From Candidatus Woesearchaeota archaeon CG10_big_fil_rev_8_21_14_0_10_37_12 (GTDB taxonomy: Archaea > Nanobdellota > Nanobdellia > Woesearchaeales > ARS49): a DNA stretch of 64,000 nt. Both the position numbers and the translations under genes were made by a program. The stretch lies in assembly GCA_002762795.1 (NCBI GenBank), contig PCYA01000008.1:1-64000 (forward strand), written 5' to 3'. The notes beneath the pieces are model-generated. The model ran no database searches and was not told the origin of the DNA. It worked only from the letters and a program-made list of their open reading frames with translations. This document shows, piece after piece, positions 4,287 to 53,131 of the stretch. The first letter of the stretch is position 1. Every line of letters begins with the position of its first letter.

Positions 4287-4412
4287 AAGGGAACTTTGAA
4301 AAAATATTGTAATTGAGTCAAAGTTCCCTAAGCCAACTTTGAATATCGACGACAAAAATAATAAGGCGTTCACGCCAATCACCAAAAACAGACTAATTCA
4401 AAGTTGCCTTAA
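4287..4412. repeat. Palindromic repeat, family B copy 1 (no hairpin array)
   Basis: The first hairpin pairs GGGAACTTTGA with TCAAAGTTCCC. The second pairs an AGCCAACTTTGAAT arm with ATTCAAAGTTGCCT. Two relatives (5519-5747 and 27057-27234) share the layout but carry extra small hairpins inserted after the CCAAC/GGCAAC of the second hairpin. This copy gives the uninterrupted form. Confidence 0.85.
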
Positions 4413-4447
4413 GAAAAACATATAAGCAAACAACAAAACCAAACTGT

Positions 4448-4738: not shown

Positions 4739-4832
4739 GTATGCTTGACCTTTAAAAAAAGAGAAAGAAAAAGCTCCTTCTGTGTTAACGTTACCAATTC
4801 CTGTCGAGTTTATTGATTAAAGTCTTGCATTA

Positions 4833-4949
4833 AAATAAAAATCCCAATCACCGCAAGCGGTGGGGTATTTTTAAAGTTATGATACCCATTGATCTTAAGA
4901 AAAACAAGGACGAACCCAACCGCCCCAAGGAGCGGGGTATCATAACAAA
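4833..4949. repeat. Two-hairpin repeat, family C copy 1 (no array)
   Basis: The first hairpin has an inner CCGCAAGCGG stem followed by TGGGGTATTTTT. The second pairs GTTATGATACCC with GGGGTATCATAAC around a CCGCCCCAAGGAGCGG loop stem. Copy 2 at 29.3 kb is nearly the same but has about 130 extra bases of serial hairpins between the two halves. The right end of C1 supplies the stop codon of the leftward gene ending at 4940. Confidence 0.85.
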
Positions 4950-5518: not shown

Positions 5519-5747
5519 AAGGAAACTTTGAATAATTATAAAGATCGAGTCAAAGTTTCCTAAGGCAACACTAAAAAATCCAAAGGATTTTTGGTGCAAG
5601 GAAACCACAGCGGTTTCCTGCACACAAAATTGAAAATTTTGTTGTGCCCAGAAAATCACAGATTTTCTTGGGTTTTGAATATCGACGATAAAATTGAGAG
5701 GCTTTTAACGCCAAACACCAAATAAGTGATTTATTCAAAATTGCCTG
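5519..5747. repeat. Family B copy 2 carrying a four-hairpin array
   Basis: The outer layout equals B1, but about 105 bases are inserted between GGCAAC and TTTTGAATATCGAC. The insert holds four short palindromes in series with cores AAAAAATCC/GGATTTTT, AGGAAACC/GGTTTCCT, ACAAAATT/AATTTTGT and AGAAAATC/GATTTTCT. Neighbours share junctions such as GTGC and GCAC. The last two units recur in the unrelated repeat C2. Confidence 0.85.
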
Positions 5748-5763
5748 AACATATTACCGCAAC

Positions 5764-5792: not shown

Positions 5793-6130
5793 TTGGTTGG
5801 GCGGGGCGACTGAGCAACGGAAGATCATTCTTCTGAGGAAAGTCTACCCACCACACAAAAGGCAACTCAATTAATTGAGATTCAGTAATGGATGGCAACG
5901 TCGCAGAAACGAACCGTGCGGTTAAAAGATGATGTGGGAAACACCTGGTGACAAGTGCATAACCTGCGGATGTTTATCGTGCCTGGATGAAACGGACAGC
6001 CCTTGCCTGGTGCAAGCTTCGAGCGCTAAGTAGAATGCCCAGACGCTGGTTCCACTGCTTCAATGCAGTATCTTTGAAATAAAACAAAGAATGACAGCGG
6101 ACAAAAGGTAGCTTATGCCTGCCCAACCAA
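5793..6130 (+). ncRNA. rnpB: RNase P RNA
   Basis: The 5' TTGGTTGGGCGGG pairs with the 3' GCCTGCCCAACCAA as helix P1/P2. CTGAGGAAAGTC (5836-5847 region) is the universal conserved region I. GAAACGAACCGTGCGG and the late ACAGCGGACAAAAGG-type segment fit the conserved core of archaeal type A RNA. Length is about 338 bases. It cleaves 5' leaders of pre-tRNAs together with protein subunits, one of which (Rnp1) is encoded at 48254 in the ribosomal cluster. Confidence 0.93.
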
Positions 6131-10078: not shown

Positions 10079-10141
10079 TTTGAATCCTCCATAAAGTTTG
10101 ATATTATATGCTTTTCTATTGAGTTAACACGATCTGTAACA

Positions 10142-10267
10142 TAAAGAAAAACGCACTATTCCCCGACCTGAAGGTCGGGGTATTTTATCGTGCGTTTTTC
10201 TACTTGCAAAGTTCGCCCTGAAGGGCGGGGTTTTAAACCCCCATGCAAAGTCCTGCGAACTTTGCAA
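10142..10267. repeat. Two-hairpin repeat, family A copy 1 (shortest form)
   Basis: Hairpin 1 pairs AGAAAAACGCAC with GTGCGTTTTTCT around CCCCGACC-TGAA-GGTCGGGG-TATT. Hairpin 2 pairs TTGCAAAGTTCGC with GCGAACTTTGCAA around a GCCCTGAAGGGC inner stem. Copies A2-A4 have extra hairpins between the two halves. Lies upstream of thrS. The gene-free stretch 10079-10816 otherwise holds repeat E2 and related palindromes; no coding signal was seen in it. Confidence 0.88.
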
Positions 10268-10473
10268 TAAAACAAAAAGTAGAGACAATGAACTGCATTA
10301 TGCAGTAGTAGTGGTAGGTGTAGTAAGAATTAATGTTGATTTGGTTTTTTGTACGTTGTTTTGGTTTTTCATAGTACCACCTGAAATTGAGAAAAAGCAA
10401 GACATATATAAATTTTCCTTTCTGTACAGAGGGGAAGCACTCATCGCGCTCGAAGTGTTTCTCTTCGCCCCTC

Positions 10474-10620
10474 TTGTCAGGAACCACTGATCGCTCCTTC
10501 GTCGCTTAACACCAGTGGCATGACTGTTCAGAAAATCATAAGAAAAATATGACCAGTGGTTCCTGATCATGCTCGGAATTTCACACAATTATAAATTATT
10601 TTTGTGAAATTCCGATATGT
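10474..10620. repeat. Family E copy 2, mosaic palindrome
   Basis: AGGAACCACTG pairs with a CAGTGGTTCCT arm 80 bases on. Between them the GATCGCTCCTTCGTCGC and ACCAGTGGCATGACTGTTC blocks are shared almost unchanged with copy 3 near 39.9 kb. The arm is followed by ATCATGCTCGG and a nested CGGAATTTCAC/GTGAAATTCCG hairpin. Related palindromic DNA continues to about 10780 (GAAAGTC/GACTTTC; AGAAAACGCAAA/TTTGCGTTTTCT). Confidence 0.8.
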
Positions 10621-10816: not shown

Positions 10817-11908
10817 TTACTGCTTACTAAACAACAAAACAGTTAACTGTTCTTTGCCCTGCATAACATGCAATTCTTTTTCGATAACAAAACCTGTTGA
10901 GTGTTCTTTCAAAAGATCAGCACCAGTTCTTACACACAAACACAACTTGCCGTCAGATTTTAACACTAACTTTGCCTGCTCAAATAGTTTCTTGTAAACT
11001 CTTGCTGCGCGTTCAATTGCAAAAGACTTGCCGGGCTGAATTGGTGTTGAGATAATTCTATCAACAGAAGATTTATCAAATTTTAAATCAATGTCTTCTA
11101 AAGGTTTTCTGCTAAAATCAATGTGTTTATTCACTCCTGCAATCTTTGCATTTTTTTTCGCAGATGAAACATGCTTAAAATTTTCATCAATAGCAACAAT
11201 TCTTCCTTTGAACTCTTTTTCCTTGTCTTTGAAGTTACACACCACGCATGGTAAGTGCGTGCACGCAAGCTTTTCCTTGCTGAATTTATGCACTGAAGCA
11301 TTTGTTGCCATGAGCGCTGCTTCAATAGGAATCACGCCATGACGACAAAAAATATCAATAAGCGTGTGTTTTGGTTCATATTCAGCAACAAATAACAATG
11401 CAGCAGCAATATTGCCTTTCAACGCATTTGAACCAAGAAAAATTCGATAATCACGCTTGCCCAAATCAATGCCCGAAAAATCAATACCCACATAGCAACC
11501 ATCATTAACAATAATAACGTGTATTATTGTTTCTGGGCGTTTATGATCAATTATTTGTTTATAGTTATTTTTCAAAACACCATTCAACTTGCCTTCAACA
11601 TCAAATGACGTAAACCCATGGTTTCCAGAACGTTCACAATAAACTACTACAGATTTCTGCAAAAAAGGCTTTGTTATCTCGAGAACAGATTCATCAGGAA
11701 GTGCACTTATTTTTGATTCATGCAGGACCAGAACAACTTTTGAAAATGTACGCCCATAATAACATAAAGAAGTCAGCTCATTATATGAACTGCAAGAAAA
11801 AAACACCTTGCCTGGTTTTACATCAACATCAGTTACTGTAATTAATTGCCGCAACTCATTCGCACTAACATTCTCAAGTCCTTTATTCGTTAGAATCAGT
11901 GCTTTCAT
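10817..11908 (-). CDS. THUMP-domain class I RNA methyltransferase (Trm14/RlmL-like), degenerate motifs
   Basis: About 363 residues from the ATG at 11908, which overlaps the gyrA end by 26 bases. The N-terminal half has the THUMP-type pattern ([19 protein letters not shown] at the start). The C-terminal half is a Rossmann methyltransferase: [17 protein letters not shown] replaces the usual DPxCGSGTIxIEAA, GRIVAIDEN is the acidic strand, and [12 protein letters not shown] stands where catalytic [D/N]PPY is expected. Relatives make N2-methylguanine in tRNA or rRNA. Loss of the PPY motif raises doubt about catalysis. Confidence 0.78.
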
Positions 11909-14342
11909 CTTCGTAAGCAATTTTTGCCACATTCATTAACTTATCGCCTTCACCAAGACGCATAACGCGAACACCTTGCGTATTCCTGCCAGTAATACTA
12001 ATACCTTTTGCAGGTGTTCGTATCAAAATTCCTTTCTGAGAAATAAGCATTAATTCATCAGTATCAGAAACACTTTTTATTGCTACAACCCTGCCATTCT
12101 TATTAGTAATTTTAATATTAATAACCCCTACCCCCCCTCGTGCAGTCAACCTATATTCACTAATTTCAGTTCGCTTACCAAAACCATACTCAGTAACAGT
12201 AACCAAAATTTTATCATCTTCTGCAATGGTTGCCCCAACAACCTTATCATCTCTCAAACGAATACCAATAACGCCCGTAGCAGTCCTACCCATAGAACGC
12301 ACACCCAGTTCATCAAACTTCACAGCCATACCCTGCTCAGTTGCAATGATTATCTTCCTTATACCATCAGTTAACATCACAGATTGCAATTCATCACCCT
12401 CAACAAGATTCACCGCAAGAATGCCTCCACGACGCGGATTACTAAACTCAACCAAAGGAGTTTTCTTCACAGTACCATTTGTTGTAACCATAAACAAAAA
12501 TTGATTCTCTGCAAATTCTTTCACAGGAATAAATGTTGACACTTTTTCACCCTGCATTAGTTGAAGCGCGTTCACAATAGCAGTACCTTTTGCGTATCTT
12601 CCTGCCTCAGGAAGCTGATGCACCTTCAACCAATGCACTTTACCAAGATTCGTAAAACACAACAGAAAATCATGCGTATTTGCAACAAAAACAGTCTCAA
12701 GGAAATCTCCTTCGTTTGTCTCAGCAGCAGTAATGCCCCTACCACCGCGCTTTTGCTGCTTATACGTATCAACAGGAATACGCTTCACATAACCAGCATG
12801 CGTAATTGTAACAACAACATCCTCTTGCTTGATTAAAGATTCATCATCAGTACTCTCAAAATCACCTTCAATAATCTGCGTTCTTCTTGCATCGCCATAT
12901 TTATCCTTTAACTCAAGCAATTCAGATTTGATAATTGCCAAAATCTTCTGCTCACTCGCTAAAATAGCTTCCAGCTCTTCTATTTTTTTGAGCAAACCAG
13001 AATGTTCATTACGAATATTCTCTTGCTCCAAAGACGTTAACCTGCGCAAAGTCATATCAAGAATAGCCTGCGCCTGCTTCTCAGACAATGCATACTCCTG
13101 CATCAAACTATCTTTTGCAACCTGCGCACTACTACTTTGCTTAATTAGCTTCACAATTTCATCAATATCATTCAATGCAACTATTAACCCTTCAAGAATA
13201 TGTGCTCTGTCTTTTGCCTGCTGCAAATCAAAACTTGTGCGTTTTCTAACTACTATCTGACGGTGTTTGATAAACTCCCCGAGTGCATCTCTTAACGAAA
13301 TAACTTTTGGCTGATTATCAACCAACGCAAGCATATTCATACCAAAAGATTCCTGCAAGCGCGAATGTGCAAATAGCTGATTTAATACCAATTCTGCATT
13401 TGCGTTTTGCTTTAACTCAATAACAACACGCAAACCATCCCTATCAGACTCATCACGAATATCAGAAATTCCAACAATCCTCTTATCATTCACCAACTCA
13501 GCAATCTGCTCAATCAACTGCGCCTTATTCACCATATACGGAATTTCAGAAATAACAATACGCTGCCTACCCTTATGATCCTCAACCTTTGCCCTTGCAC
13601 GAACAACCAGCTTTCCTTTGCCCGATGCATACGCTGAACGTATTCCAGAAGTTCCAATAATAATGCCACCAGTTGGAAAATCAGGAGCAGGAATCTTCTG
13701 CATCAACTCTGAAACAGTCACCTCGGGATTATCAATCATCGCAACAACACCATCAGCAACCTCATTCAAATTATGCGGCGGAATATTCGTGGCCATACCA
13801 ACAGCAATACCAGAACTTCCATTGATTAAGAGATTTGGAATTTTCGAAGGAAGAACAGCAGGCTGCTTTAATGAACCATCATAATTAGGAACAAAATTAA
13901 CTGTTTCCTTATCAATATCCTGAAGCAATTCCTCTGCAAGCTTCTTCATACGCGCTTCAGTATAACGCATTGCTGCTGGATTGTCACCGTCGACAGAACC
14001 AAAATTCCCCTGACCATCAACTAACGGATACCTCAACGAGAAATCCTGAGCCAAACGAACCATCGTATCATAAATAGCTACATCACCATGCGGATGATAC
14101 TTACCCATCACATCTCCAACAATTCTTGCAGATTTCTTGAACGGCTTATTATGCATCAGACCCATCTCATACATACCAAACAAAACCCTTCTATGAACTG
14201 GCTTTAACCCATCACGAACATCAGGCAAAGCTCTGCCAACTATCACTGACATAGAATAGCCCAAATAGGACTGTTTCATCTCTTTGTCAATTATTCTCGG
14301 AACTATTTTTTGCTCAGTTTGTGCAGATTCTGTTTCACTCAT
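11883..14342 (-). CDS. gyrA: DNA gyrase subunit A
   Basis: This 819-residue protein is full length. [19 protein letters not shown] starts the breakage-reunion domain. The catalytic tyrosine is Y127 in [10 protein letters not shown]. The C-terminal beta-pinwheel carries a GyrA box, QQKRGGRGI, which marks gyrase rather than topoisomerase IV. With GyrB (not in this window) it adds negative supercoils. Several DPANN and Euryarchaeota acquired gyrase from bacteria. It lies in one leftward transcript with a ScpB homologue and a mini zinc ribbon, a chromosome-topology grouping. Confidence 0.97.
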
Positions 14343-26875: not shown

Positions 26876-26970
26876 AATGCGGAGGGCAGGTAGAGACAAG
26901 ACGCTGCGCTCTTCTGTCTAACCTTCCCTCAACGCAATCTACTCACTGCGTTCGTAATGCGGAGGGCAGG
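26876..26970. repeat. 15-bp direct repeat of the tRNA-Leu 3' end, 80 bp apart
   Basis: AATGCGGAGGGCAGG occurs at 26876-26890 and 26956-26970. The second copy is the 3' end of tRNA-Leu. The 65 bases between contain two small palindromes (AGACA...TGTCT and ACGCAATC...ACTGCGT). This resembles a duplicated target or att-like site. Confidence 0.7.
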
Positions 26971-27041
26971 ATTTGAACCTGCGAAGACACTAAGTCAATA
27001 GCTCTTGAGGCTATCCCCTTTGACCACTCGGGAACCTCCGC
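26958..27041 (-). tRNA. tRNA-Leu (CAA)
   Basis: On the minus strand the acceptor GCGGAGG pairs with CCTCCGC, discriminator A. The D arm contains GTGGTCAAAG. The anticodon stem ATAGC/GCTAT holds CTCAAGA, anticodon CAA. A long class II variable arm and the T arm GCAGG-TTCAAAT-CCTGC follow. No intron. Confidence 0.93.
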
Positions 27042-27056
27042 GAATTGCTTTGAAGT

Positions 27057-27234
27057 ATAGGGAACTTTGAAAAACCATTGGAATTTAGTCAAAATTCCCA
27101 AGCCAACACTAAAAAACCAAGGGTTTTTGGTGCCAGAAAATCTCTGATTTTCTTGGGCTTTGAATACCGACGACAAAAATCATAGGGCGTTCACGACATT
27201 GACCAAAAAACTGATTAATTCAAAATTTCCTATA
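27057..27234. repeat. Family B copy 3 carrying a two-hairpin array
   Basis: The layout equals B1, with GGGAACTTTGA at the left and TTCAAAATTTCCTATA at the right. Two units, AAAAAACC/GGTTTTT and AGAAAATC/GATTTTCT, are inserted after GCCAAC, at the same point as in B2. Confidence 0.82.
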
Positions 27235-27304
27235 AAGAATAACCCAAAGTATCCTTTTAAAAGTTATTGGTTTATTAAACGAAATAGAATACTATAGAAA
27301 AAAA

Positions 27305-27946: not shown

Positions 27947-29284
27947 ATGGATATACAAATAGCAGCTGTTGGTGGCTACGGTGAAGTTGGCAGAAACATG
28001 ACTGCTGTAAAAGTCAACGATTCTGTTGTGATTTTTGACATGGGTCTGCATTTACCAAACTACATCAAACTAACAGAAGAAGAAATGGACAACACTACAA
28101 GAAACAGCATCAAAACACTACAAACAGCAAATGCAATTCCCCTTGACTACACCATAGAAGATTGGCGATCACAAGTTATTGCAATTGTTACAACACATGC
28201 GCACCTTGACCATTTAGGAGCAATACCCAGACTTGCAAAAAAATACAAAGCGCCAGTAATCTGCACACCATATTCTGCAGCACTCCTGCGCATAATTTGC
28301 AGAGATGAAAAAATAACACTGCCTAACAACATAATAGAAATGAAAGCAGGAGGAATAAAAAAACTCAACAAAGACCTAGAAATGGAATTTGTACACACAA
28401 CACACAGCACACTACAAACAATCATTGCTGTGCTTCACACTCATACAGGGTCAATCATATACGCAAACGATTACAAACTAGACAACGCACCAGTATATGG
28501 AAACCCGCCCGATTACCCACGATTAAAACAATTAGGAGATCACGGAGTTCTTGCACTTATGCAAGACTGTATTTATGCAGGAAACCCAAGAAGAACACCC
28601 CCTGAACAAGAAGCAAAAGACAAACTACGAGACATATTATTCAGAATACCAGAAAATGAAGGCATACTTGTAACAACATTTGCAAGCCACGCAGTAAGAT
28701 TAAAAACAATTACTGAATTCGGGAAAAAACTCGGCAGAAAAGTTATTTTTCTTAGTAGAAGCATGGAAAAATACGCCATGGCTGCAAAAGACGCAAAAAT
28801 TTTTGACTTAAGCCAAACAGCAGACGTTATAAAATATGCGCGAAAAATACGAAGAAAAATCGCAGACGTAATAAAAGACGGCAAACATAAATACTTACTT
28901 GTAGTATCAGGACATCAAGGAGAACCAAACAGCACCCTCAACAAAATGGTACACAACATTTACCCCTGGAACTTCAAAAATGACCATATTATTTTCTCAT
29001 CACACATCATTCCAGCAGAAATCAACAGAAAAAACAGAGCAACACTAGAACAAAACCTCAAAAAAATAGGAGCTCACATTTACACAGAAGCACACGTATC
29101 AGGACACAGCAGCAGAGAAGACATGCGAGACATTATCAACATGCTCAAACCAAAACATCTAATTCCAGCACACGGCGAAATGCACATGATGGAAGCGTTC
29201 AAAAGCTTAAGTGAAGAAATGGGATACAAAGAAGGAAAAACACTTCACCTTATCTTAAATGGAGATCGGAAAACAATTAAATAA
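27947..29284 (+). CDS. rnj: Archaeal RNase J
   Basis: About 445 residues from the ATG at 27947; the longer frame begins inside the terminator hairpin and is rejected. VTTHAHLDHLGAIPR (H84, H86, D88, H89) is the metallo-beta-lactamase zinc motif. TTHSTLQTI, NDYKLDNAPVYG, SGHQGEPNSTL and the C-terminal HVSGHSSREDM and LIPAHGEMHMM complete the beta-CASP set. A 5'-3' exoribonuclease of mRNA decay and rRNA processing. Confidence 0.95.
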   Translation: MDIQIAAVGGYGEVGRNMTAVKVNDSVVIFDMGLHLPNYIKLTEEEMDNTTRNSIKTLQTANAIPLDYTIEDWRSQVIAIVTTHAHLDHLGAIPRLAKKYKAPVICTPYSAALLRIICRDEKITLPNNIIEMKAGGIKKLNKDLEMEFVHTTHSTLQTIIAVLHTHTGSIIYANDYKLDNAPVYGNPPDYPRLKQLGDHGVLALMQDCIYAGNPRRTPPEQEAKDKLRDILFRIPENEGILVTTFASHAVRLKTITEFGKKLGRKVIFLSRSMEKYAMAAKDAKIFDLSQTADVIKYARKIRRKIADVIKDGKHKYLLVVSGHQGEPNSTLNKMVHNIYPWNFKNDHIIFSSHIIPAEINRKNRATLEQNLKKIGAHIYTEAHVSGHSSREDMRDIINMLKPKHLIPAHGEMHMMEAFKSLSEEMGYKEGKTLHLILNGDRKTIK

Positions 29285-29522
29285 AAATCCCAACCACCGC
29301 AAGCAGTAGGGTACAAGAAAATTCTTTGAATTTTCTGTACAAGAAAAGCAAAGCATTTCTGTGCAAGGAAATCATGGTAATTTCCTGCACACAAAATTGA
29401 AAATTTTGTTGTGCCCAGAAAATTTTTCAAATTTTCTCGGGTTTAAAGTTATGATACTCCATCAATTGTAAGAAAAACAAGGACGAACCCAACCGCCCCA
29501 AGGAGCGGAGTATCATAACAAA
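29281..29522. repeat. Family C copy 2 carrying a five-hairpin array
   Basis: The flanks equal C1. Between AGGGTAC and TTTAAAGTT lie five units: AGAAAATTC/GAATTTTCT, AGAAAAGC/GCATTTCT, AGGAAAT/ATTTCCT, ACAAAATT/AATTTTGT and AGAAAATT/AATTTTCT. The junctions between units are GTAC, GTGC, GCAC and GTGC. The last two units match B2 almost exactly. Confidence 0.88.
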
Positions 29523-32947: not shown

Positions 32948-33030
32948 TCAACACCTCTTTAACAACACCAAAAATCAAGGCATACCAATATATAAATGTT
33001 ACTTTTTAGTATACTGGAAAAAGTTTGAAA

Positions 33031-33311
33031 TAAAGAAAAACGCACTATTCCCCGACCTGAAGGTCAGGTATTTCGCTCAAAAAATTCAATGCATTTTTTG
33101 GCGCCATAAAATTCTTAAGAATTTTATCAGTATCGTGCGTTTTTCTACAGCGAAAAATACATTTTTCGCGTACAGAAAACCTAAAGGTTTTCTTGTACAG
33201 GAACTAAAATTCCTGATACGCAAACAACTTCGTTGTTCGCGATACTTGCAAAGTTCGCCCTAAAGGGCAGGGTTTTAAACCCCAGTGCAAAGTCCTGCGA
33301 ACTTTGCAATA
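33031..33311. repeat. Family A copy 2 with hairpin array
   Basis: The two A hairpins are present. An extra GGCGCC/AAAATTCTTAAGAATTTT pair is nested inside hairpin 1. Four short hairpins in series lie between hairpins 1 and 2: GCGAAAAAT/ATTTTTCGC, AGAAAACC/GGTTTTCT, AGGAACT/ATTCCT and AACAA-CTTCG-TTGTT. They are joined by GTAC/ATAC. The copy fills most of the gene-free stretch 32948-33373. Confidence 0.88.
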
Positions 33312-33373
33312 AGAAGTTGACATTAAAGAGAGAAAAGCCAAAAAATTAAAAGCCCATCAACCATACTGAGCAC

Positions 33374-33701: not shown

Positions 33702-33982
33702 ATAAAGAAAAACGCACTATTCCCCGACCTGAAGGCCGGAGTATTTCGCTAAAAAATTCAAGAAATTTTTGGCGCCATAAAATTCTTAAGAATTTTATTG
33801 GTATCGTGCGTTTTTCTACAGCGAAAAATACATTTTTCGCGTACAGAAAACCTTGAGGTTTTCTTGTACAGGAACTAAAGTTCCTGATACGCAAACAACT
33901 TCGTTGTTCGCGATACTTGCAAAGTTCGCCTAAAGGGCAGGGTATTAAACCCCAGTGCAAAGTCCTGCGAACTTTGCAATAA
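33702..33982. repeat. Family A copy 3 with hairpin array
   Basis: Nearly identical to copy 2, including nested and serial hairpins, and in the same orientation 671 bases away, on the other side of the DUF212 gene. Differences include compensating changes in small stems (CCTAAAGG to CCTTGAGG). Confidence 0.88.
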
Positions 33983-37038: not shown

Positions 37039-37265
37039 ATAAAGAAAAACGCACTATTCCCCGACCTGAAGGTCGGGGTATTTTATCGTGCGTTTTTCTA
37101 CAGCGAAAAATACATTTTTCGCGTACAGAAAACCTAAAGGTTTTCTTGTACAGGAACTAAAGTTCCTGATACGCAAACAACTTCGTTGTTCACGATACTT
37201 GCAAAGTTCGCCCTAAAGGGCGGGGTATTAAACCCCTCTACAAAGTTCTTGCGAACTTTGCAATA
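37039..37265. repeat. Family A copy 4, array in the spacer only
   Basis: Hairpin 1 is in the simple form (as in A1), but the four serial hairpins of A2/A3 are present between hairpins 1 and 2. It therefore differs from A1 only by the array, and from A2/A3 only by the nested insert. Confidence 0.87.
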
Positions 37266-37311
37266 ATCAAAAACAAGAAAGCCTATAAATAAAAGAAAAA
37301 TCAACAAATAC

Positions 37312-39726: not shown

Positions 39727-40014
39727 AACTCACCTGTGCTTCTAAACATTGAAAGCCAGACTATTTTGCGCTTTCTATTTTTTGGTCGATGGGGAGCTTT
39801 AAAGAGGGGCGAACAAAAACAAGGCAAGCGCAAGGAGCACGTCCCCTCTGTCAAGAACCACTGGTGATCGCTCCTTCGTCGCTCAACACCAGTGGCATGA
39901 CTGTTCAGAAAATCATAAGAAAAAATAACCAGTGGTTCTTGATCATGCTCGGAATGCCACTCGCTACAGTAAACCACTCGTGATACACACTAGTGGCATT
40001 CCGACATGTAAAGA
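39727..40014. repeat. Family E copy 3, mosaic palindrome
   Basis: The core at 39850-40010 pairs AAGAACCACTGG with CCAGTGGTTCTT. CGGAATGCCACT/AGTGGCATTCCG follows. The left flank (CACCTGTGCTTCTAAA, GGGGAG) is the inverted counterpart of the right flank of copy 2, so the element is mosaic. The remaining gene-free DNA 39499-39726 holds GAGAGGAGAC/GTCCTCTC and GCGAGGGC-type hairpins, with no coding signal. Confidence 0.8.
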
Positions 40015-52994: not shown

Positions 52995-53017
52995 GAAATT
53001 TGAAGTAGAAAAACAAA

Positions 53018-53131
53018 ATGGCAACAAACGGAAATAAATTTCCGAAATTGCAATTTTGAAAAAAAGAACAAGAAAATCAAAATGGCAACAAACGGAAATA
53101 AATTTCCGAAATTGCAATTTTGAAAAACAAA
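53018..53131 (+). repeat. Duplicated uL18 start region with two 13-codon mini-ORFs
   Basis: AAAATGGCAACAAA occurs three times (ATGs at 53018, 53082 and 53132). The first two copies are each followed by the palindromes GGAAATAAATTTCC and AAATTGCAATTT and a stop, giving identical frames MATNGNKFPKLQF (53018-53059 and 53082-53123). The third copy is the true uL18 start. Confidence 0.85.

Follow-up and report, generated by a model that had tools for sequence, protein, structure and literature searches.

Pairs of small hairpins nested within palindromic repeats of a woesearchaeal genome, probably mobile elements

Hairpin arrays in a woesearchaeal genome are best explained, with a probability of roughly 0.6, as nests of small non-autonomous mobile double hairpins that regenerate their own target. 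Their building block is a pair of hairpins of about 50 bp, not a single hairpin, and the arrays parse as pairs within pairs. A preliminary description had pictured a modular mobile palindrome that grows by serial addition. The arrays are indeed modular, dispersed, nested, and added into existing palindromes, whose arms are complementary across the inserts, but the module is the two-hairpin unit with a 4-bp target duplication, and arrays also shrink. The DNA analyzed, called the window here (G000:C14:1-64000), is 64 kb of the 1,351,557-base MAG (G000) of an uncultured DPANN archaeon of the Woesearchaeales, which is in 19 contigs and 99% complete.

Loci in G000 are named by contig and position (e.g., C12:101065). 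They were collected by similarity to window sequences, and the resulting hairpin catalogue, which is the window plus the stretches around the matches (282 kb), is biased to relatives of the A, B, and C elements treated below. The units are not unique to the loci first described, as queries of the genome gave 72 matches with copy C2, 108 with a copy of A, and 67 with copy B2. Within the window, 43 hairpins have a stem score of at least 8 versus 15 to 19 in three first-order Markov shuffles, and there are six groups of adjacent hairpins versus zero or one in such shuffles. As single-stranded DNA, C2 folds at −43.4 kcal/mol versus −20.9 ± 3.2 in shuffles (z = −6.9), and C1, the copy without an insert, has z = −4.9, so the hairpins are not a product of chance.

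The hosts of the arrays are 3 families, each consisting of two side-by-side hairpins and occurring in dozens of copies, many of them interrupted by inserts at a small number of fixed positions. The 282 kb contain about 30 copies or fragments of A (130 bp), about 29 of B, and about 14 of C. Family A has four insert sites, B has two, and C mainly one; in A and B, empty copies outnumber filled ones. Host copies are mainly intergenic. Those in the window that the argument depends on are as follows.

4287-4425, plus strand: B1, family B without insert
4829-4949, plus strand: C1, family C without insert, with the empty site GGGGTA/TTTTTAAAG
5519-5749, plus strand: B2, family B with two pairs, one nested; array at 5569-5672, nested pair GTGC...GTGC at 5594-5647
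10141-10270, plus strand: family A without insert
27059-27243, plus strand: B3, family B with one pair (27107-27157), which is the B2 outer pair without the nested pair
29278-29522, plus strand: C2, family C (double hairpin) with a hairpin array
33030-33312, plus strand: family A with inserts at two sites, a pair at 33074-33127 and four hairpins at 33150-33241
33702-33982, plus strand: family A with the same two inserts as the copy at 33030-33312
37039-37266, plus strand: family A with the four-hairpin insert only

The flanks of C1 and C2 are 88% and 91% identical, and the five hairpins of C2 form a 128-bp run (29314-29441) exactly at the GGTA/TTT of C1, which has none, in agreement with the preliminary description. 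Its series of zero, two, and four inserted hairpins at one position in B1, B3, and B2 is borne out as well, all of them lying between AAGSCAA and YTTTGAATA. The four-hairpin insert of A recurs at four loci, and filled composites recur at several distinct loci. The spacer holding C2 is that between RNase J and PCNA, and no such element is there in two related genomes; the nearest genomes compared belong to other genera (PCNA identity 80%), with one genome per species. At C5:37843, a minimal C element is in one of two near-identical adjacent stretches, and the other stretch is empty. B2 is some 50 bp upstream of the gene for RNase P RNA (5800-6128, plus strand), and B3 is 17 bp upstream of a tRNA gene on the minus strand (26958-27041); the elements thus tolerate sites near the starts of RNA genes.

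Other repeats are present in the same DNA. A repeated palindromic element, CAGGAACCACTG...CCAGTGGTTCCTG, has two window copies (10478-10590 and 39855-39965, 98% over 60 nt) and is a possible further host family. A two-hairpin family with ATGAAGC and CCACCCGTC stems is found at four loci of G000 (C8:58260, C3:59226, C13:26455, and C19:124579). The window also has a 64-nt tandem duplication (53002-53129, 94%) flanked by ribosomal-protein genes and, in a DPANN archaeon, a DNA gyrase A-like ORF of 819 aa (11883-14342).

The direction of change is indicated by the host arms. In B2, the AGGCAA/TTTTGAA around the insert pairs without mismatch with TTCAAAATTGCCT in the opposite arm, and at site 1 of family B, AGGGAACTTTGA matches TCAAAG plus TTCCCT across the insert. 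Hence, the insert entered an existing palindrome and the empty state is ancestral. The inserts themselves come in filled and empty states, one outer pair being without an inner pair at C11:46888 and with one, placed at GTAC, at C5:55067 and C8:131670, and a pair at GTGC being present in B2 and missing in B3. Arrays also shrink by deletion and hairpin fusion; C12:46700, for one, resembles a C2-type array collapsed between two AATTTTCT repeats. Unit number alone is therefore no proof of growth. In at least 7 cases, loops are exact reverse complements between homologous copies while the stems are intact, including GAG/CTC, AAA/TTT, TCAA/TTGA (twice), TGTA/TACA, ACT/AGT, and CTCCA/TGGAG (C4:6320 versus C8:38754).

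When perfect stems and fixed spacing are the sole criteria for a hairpin, the pair has the grammar j0-A-hairpin-j1-hairpin-T-j2. In nested pairs, a 4-bp duplication (GTAC, GTGC/GCAC, or GCGC) makes j0 and j2 identical, and j1 reads as their reverse complement, apart from a wobble or one mismatch where the word is GCGC. The statistics are drawn from 60 distinct adjacent pairs taken by geometry alone from this and related genomes, chance pairs included. The A is found in 45 of them and the T in 47; j0 and j1 form Watson-Crick pairs at 177 of 240 positions versus a shuffle mean of 112 (maximum 136 in 2000), and j0 equals j2 at 165 of 240 versus a mean of 104 (maximum 126), counts that overstate independence because copies share ancestry and many share contexts and are not independent events. 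The junction words GTAC, GTGC, and GCAC were correctly called in the preliminary description.

The inner pair GCGAAAAA.../AGAAAACC... is found between several different sets of flanks, with unrelated outer hairpins. Its junctions are GTAC-GTAC-GTAC or GTGC-GCAC-GTGC, with CTAC-GTAC-GTAC in family A, and among the copies seen none mixes the GTAC and GTGC types. In a related genome (G088) the junctions are GGAC-GTCC-GGAC, so the complementarity of j0 and j1 extends beyond GTAC-like words.

The C2 array can be parsed in these terms.

29314-29340, plus strand: first inserted hairpin, AAGAAAATTC-TTT-GAATTTTCT, with junction GTAC after it
29341-29364, plus strand: second hairpin, fused from halves of the AAGAAAAGC... 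and AGAAATGC... hairpins, which C12:101065 keeps apart
29361-29414, plus strand: nested pair GTGC-A-AGGAAATC..GTAATTTCCT-GCAC-ACAAAATTG..TTTTGT-T-GTGC with a 4-bp GTGC duplication, also in B2
29414-29441, plus strand: last hairpin, CCCAGAAAATTTTTCAAATTTTCTCGGG, which is the second of the outer pair that the nested pair interrupts

The first of these hairpins also opens arrays in C12:8474, C12:46700, and C18:11812. Because the second is a fusion, the best reading of C2 is an array of six hairpins, or three pairs, from which one hairpin has gone. B2 and C2 do share units between unrelated hosts as had been claimed, though the common stretch (68 nt, 88% identity) comprises three units and not two.

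How far the pairs extend was asked with a strict GTRC/GYAC/GTRC pair pattern, searched against 371 genomes of the phylum. G000 itself yields 14 forward matches, 7 of them also reading in reverse, and outside G000 the pattern is found in four genomes of the same order (families f56, f65, f10, and f31). There is none in about 170 genomes of other orders of the class, and a reversed control pattern has no match in the 371 genomes. Looser matches in other genomes of the order have the same grammar with different sequences and are sporadic across the order. In family f31 (L191 and L192), the GGGGTA/TTTTT position of a C-type host is again occupied, but by a different pair. A viral carrier was considered and rejected, as the exact pattern of the commonest inner pair has no match in IMG/VR.

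The alternatives differ in what they take to move. Ectopic recombination or gene conversion, together with replication slippage among related palindromes, might shuffle and trim modules with no need for transposition of small units, which we regard as rather unlikely overall. Deletion and fusion products are visible in the second hairpin of C2 and at C12:46700, inverted loops in homologous copies reveal recombination mediated by hairpins or template switching, and in vitro the archaeal polymerases PolB and PolD slip when the template forms hairpins (PMC4134008). Ectopic recombination between copies could also move modules, which counts against reading the pairs as mobile, as do the first-level inserts that often are without a perfect duplication (GTAC...GTAT), the CAC...GGG pairs in B and C that have none, and the lack of a match to a mobilizing enzyme. 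Yet conversion alone makes no duplicated targets at new sites, the inner pair with its 4-bp duplications sits between unrelated outer hairpins, and the host arms interrupted by inserts are still complementary when read across the gap. At the other extreme, a metagenome assembly artefact is scarcely credible. Several contigs of G000 do end inside elements (C5:92415, C6:16793, C8:1, C9:57656, and C19:1), suggesting that the repeats limit assembly, and a few stretches are N, but the grammar is present in a closed single-contig genome (G035) and many others, and C1, C2, and B1 to B3 are in unique gene contexts on one contig.

Two further accounts we consider improbable to a similar and considerable degree. 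If the arrays were RNA elements, such as terminators or mRNA-stability or processing signals under selection on transcripts, then their intergenic position and nearly perfect stems would be expected. Host orientation, however, has no consistent tie to neighboring genes, an Rfam search over the window matches two tRNAs and RNase P RNA only and nothing at the arrays, and among 864 Watson-Crick pairs there are 14 G-T and 10 A-C mismatches, so that wobble is only slightly commoner. RNA-level selection was rejected for want of a clear wobble asymmetry and a consistent gene orientation, and these same observations weakly favor a constraint at the DNA level. The other account has a Y1 HUH transposase act on hairpins of single-stranded DNA and so move the units, which would be of REP/REPIN type or otherwise akin to IS200/IS605. 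IS608 recognizes its tetranucleotide target by base pairing with guide sequences, and the archaeal hairpins, whose foot carries a bulged base and whose tetranucleotide complements the target, recall that guide and cleavage pairing; hairpin ends are a further likeness. To our knowledge, IS200/IS605 elements make no target duplication, whereas the archaeal nested pairs have one. The REP-associated or HUH transposase that the preliminary description suggested looking for is not found, there being no PF01797 (Y1) match at E ≤ 0.01 in G000, 99% complete as it is, and none in the carriers G035 (closed), G055, G080, and G089. Of 92 related genomes, 28 have Y1 transposases, in no clear association with the elements. 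They are in about 9 of the 21 genomes that have C2-like matches versus about 19 of the 71 others, so Y1 is not required, and Y1/RAYT was rejected as the mobilizer. A reverse transcriptase was also rejected as the driver, as PF00078 has no match in G000, G035, G080, or G089 and is missing from most of the carriers tested. Tyrosine recombinases (PF00589) number two in G000, with at least one in 11 of 12 genomes tested, and being near universal they are no evidence for a recombinase as mobilizer.

Several known systems resemble the arrays in part. Organelle DNA of Volvox carteri contains intergenic palindromes of about 50 nt in both orientations, often inserted into one another, which builds larger elements, as in the woesearchaeal arrays (PMC2670323); these are organelle genomes, however, and no two-hairpin unit with a 4-bp duplication and a complementary middle junction is found in the portion of that paper used here. 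The double-hairpin elements of Allomyces mitochondria and the repetitive hairpin elements of sponge mitochondria are mobile, sometimes multiple-hairpin structures (PMC2800124). Two adjacent hairpins are the mobile unit there as in the archaeal pairs, but the Allomyces elements are reported without flanking duplications (PMC2800124), and the archaeal nested pairs have 4-bp duplications and nesting at the middle junction. Minute loop inversions, in which loops flip between copies and stems stay perfect, are described for chloroplast hairpins (e.g., PMC2903610), as isolated polymorphism and not as dispersed arrays.

REPINs and BIMEs with their RAYT (PMC3116915, PMC2817692) are likewise non-autonomous, intergenic, paired palindromes in mosaics; their anatomy differs from that of the archaeal nested pairs with duplications, and REP/REPIN membership fails on the missing transposase. 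The REP tag GTAG/CGTC is not what is seen at the palindrome feet, which are mostly GTAC, GTGC, GCAC, or GCGC, and GTAG is a variant confined to L041 and to family A copies when these are read on the minus strand. Hairpins and single-stranded intermediates are attributed to IS200/IS605 elements (PMC6006769). Prokaryotic MITEs are short, non-coding, palindromic, and presumably moved in trans (PMC10969869). The archaeal elements too are short non-coding repeats with inverted ends and many copies, and the nested pairs have a 4-bp target-site duplication that is not clean in first-level and CAC...GGG pairs; in the sequence collected no parent transposon was noticed, and two hairpins with a shared complementary junction are not simple terminal repeats. 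The open-licence literature searched contained no description of nested palindromes in DPANN or Woesearchaeota.

Under the preferred reading, that of nested mobile pairs, a double hairpin of about 50 bp would insert at a tetranucleotide at the foot of an existing hairpin, mostly GTAC, GTGC/GCAC, GCGC, or GTAT/GCAT, and would duplicate those 4 bp. Each insertion would recreate the target on both sides and bring a matching tetranucleotide between its own hairpins, and this middle junction would usually be the site of the next insertion, which would explain how elements pile up inside elements and inside hosts A, B, and C. Composites would then spread as units, as the filled composites at several separate loci indicate. 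Movement may proceed via an intermediate, either folded single-stranded DNA or a cruciform, with j1 paired to the target, a pairing that may select the site as IS608 guide sequences do; mobilization would be in trans by an enzyme, and loss would be by replication slippage across hairpins.

A bolder proposal, which we hold to be doubtful, is that the pairs represent a new, self-targeting class of mobile DNA, in which base pairing between j1 and j0 selects the target and a general enzyme or the replication machinery does the moving with no dedicated transposase. An excised, circularized pair would then fold into a closed dumbbell of about 25 bp, and since insertion would rebuild the target, nests would grow at the center. 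An example of such an enzyme might be a Xer-type tyrosine recombinase, which nearly every tested carrier has.

Descriptions of short mobile hairpins that have no known transposase come mostly from organelles, where their mode of movement is open. Here, empty and filled sites, duplications, a complementary junction, loop flips, and deletion products are all in one genome, so the anatomy is unusually readable, and with the grammar spread over an archaeal order, target choice and mobilization become testable. The findings also suggest that mobile DNA invisible to standard annotation can be present in many copies in a small DPANN genome.
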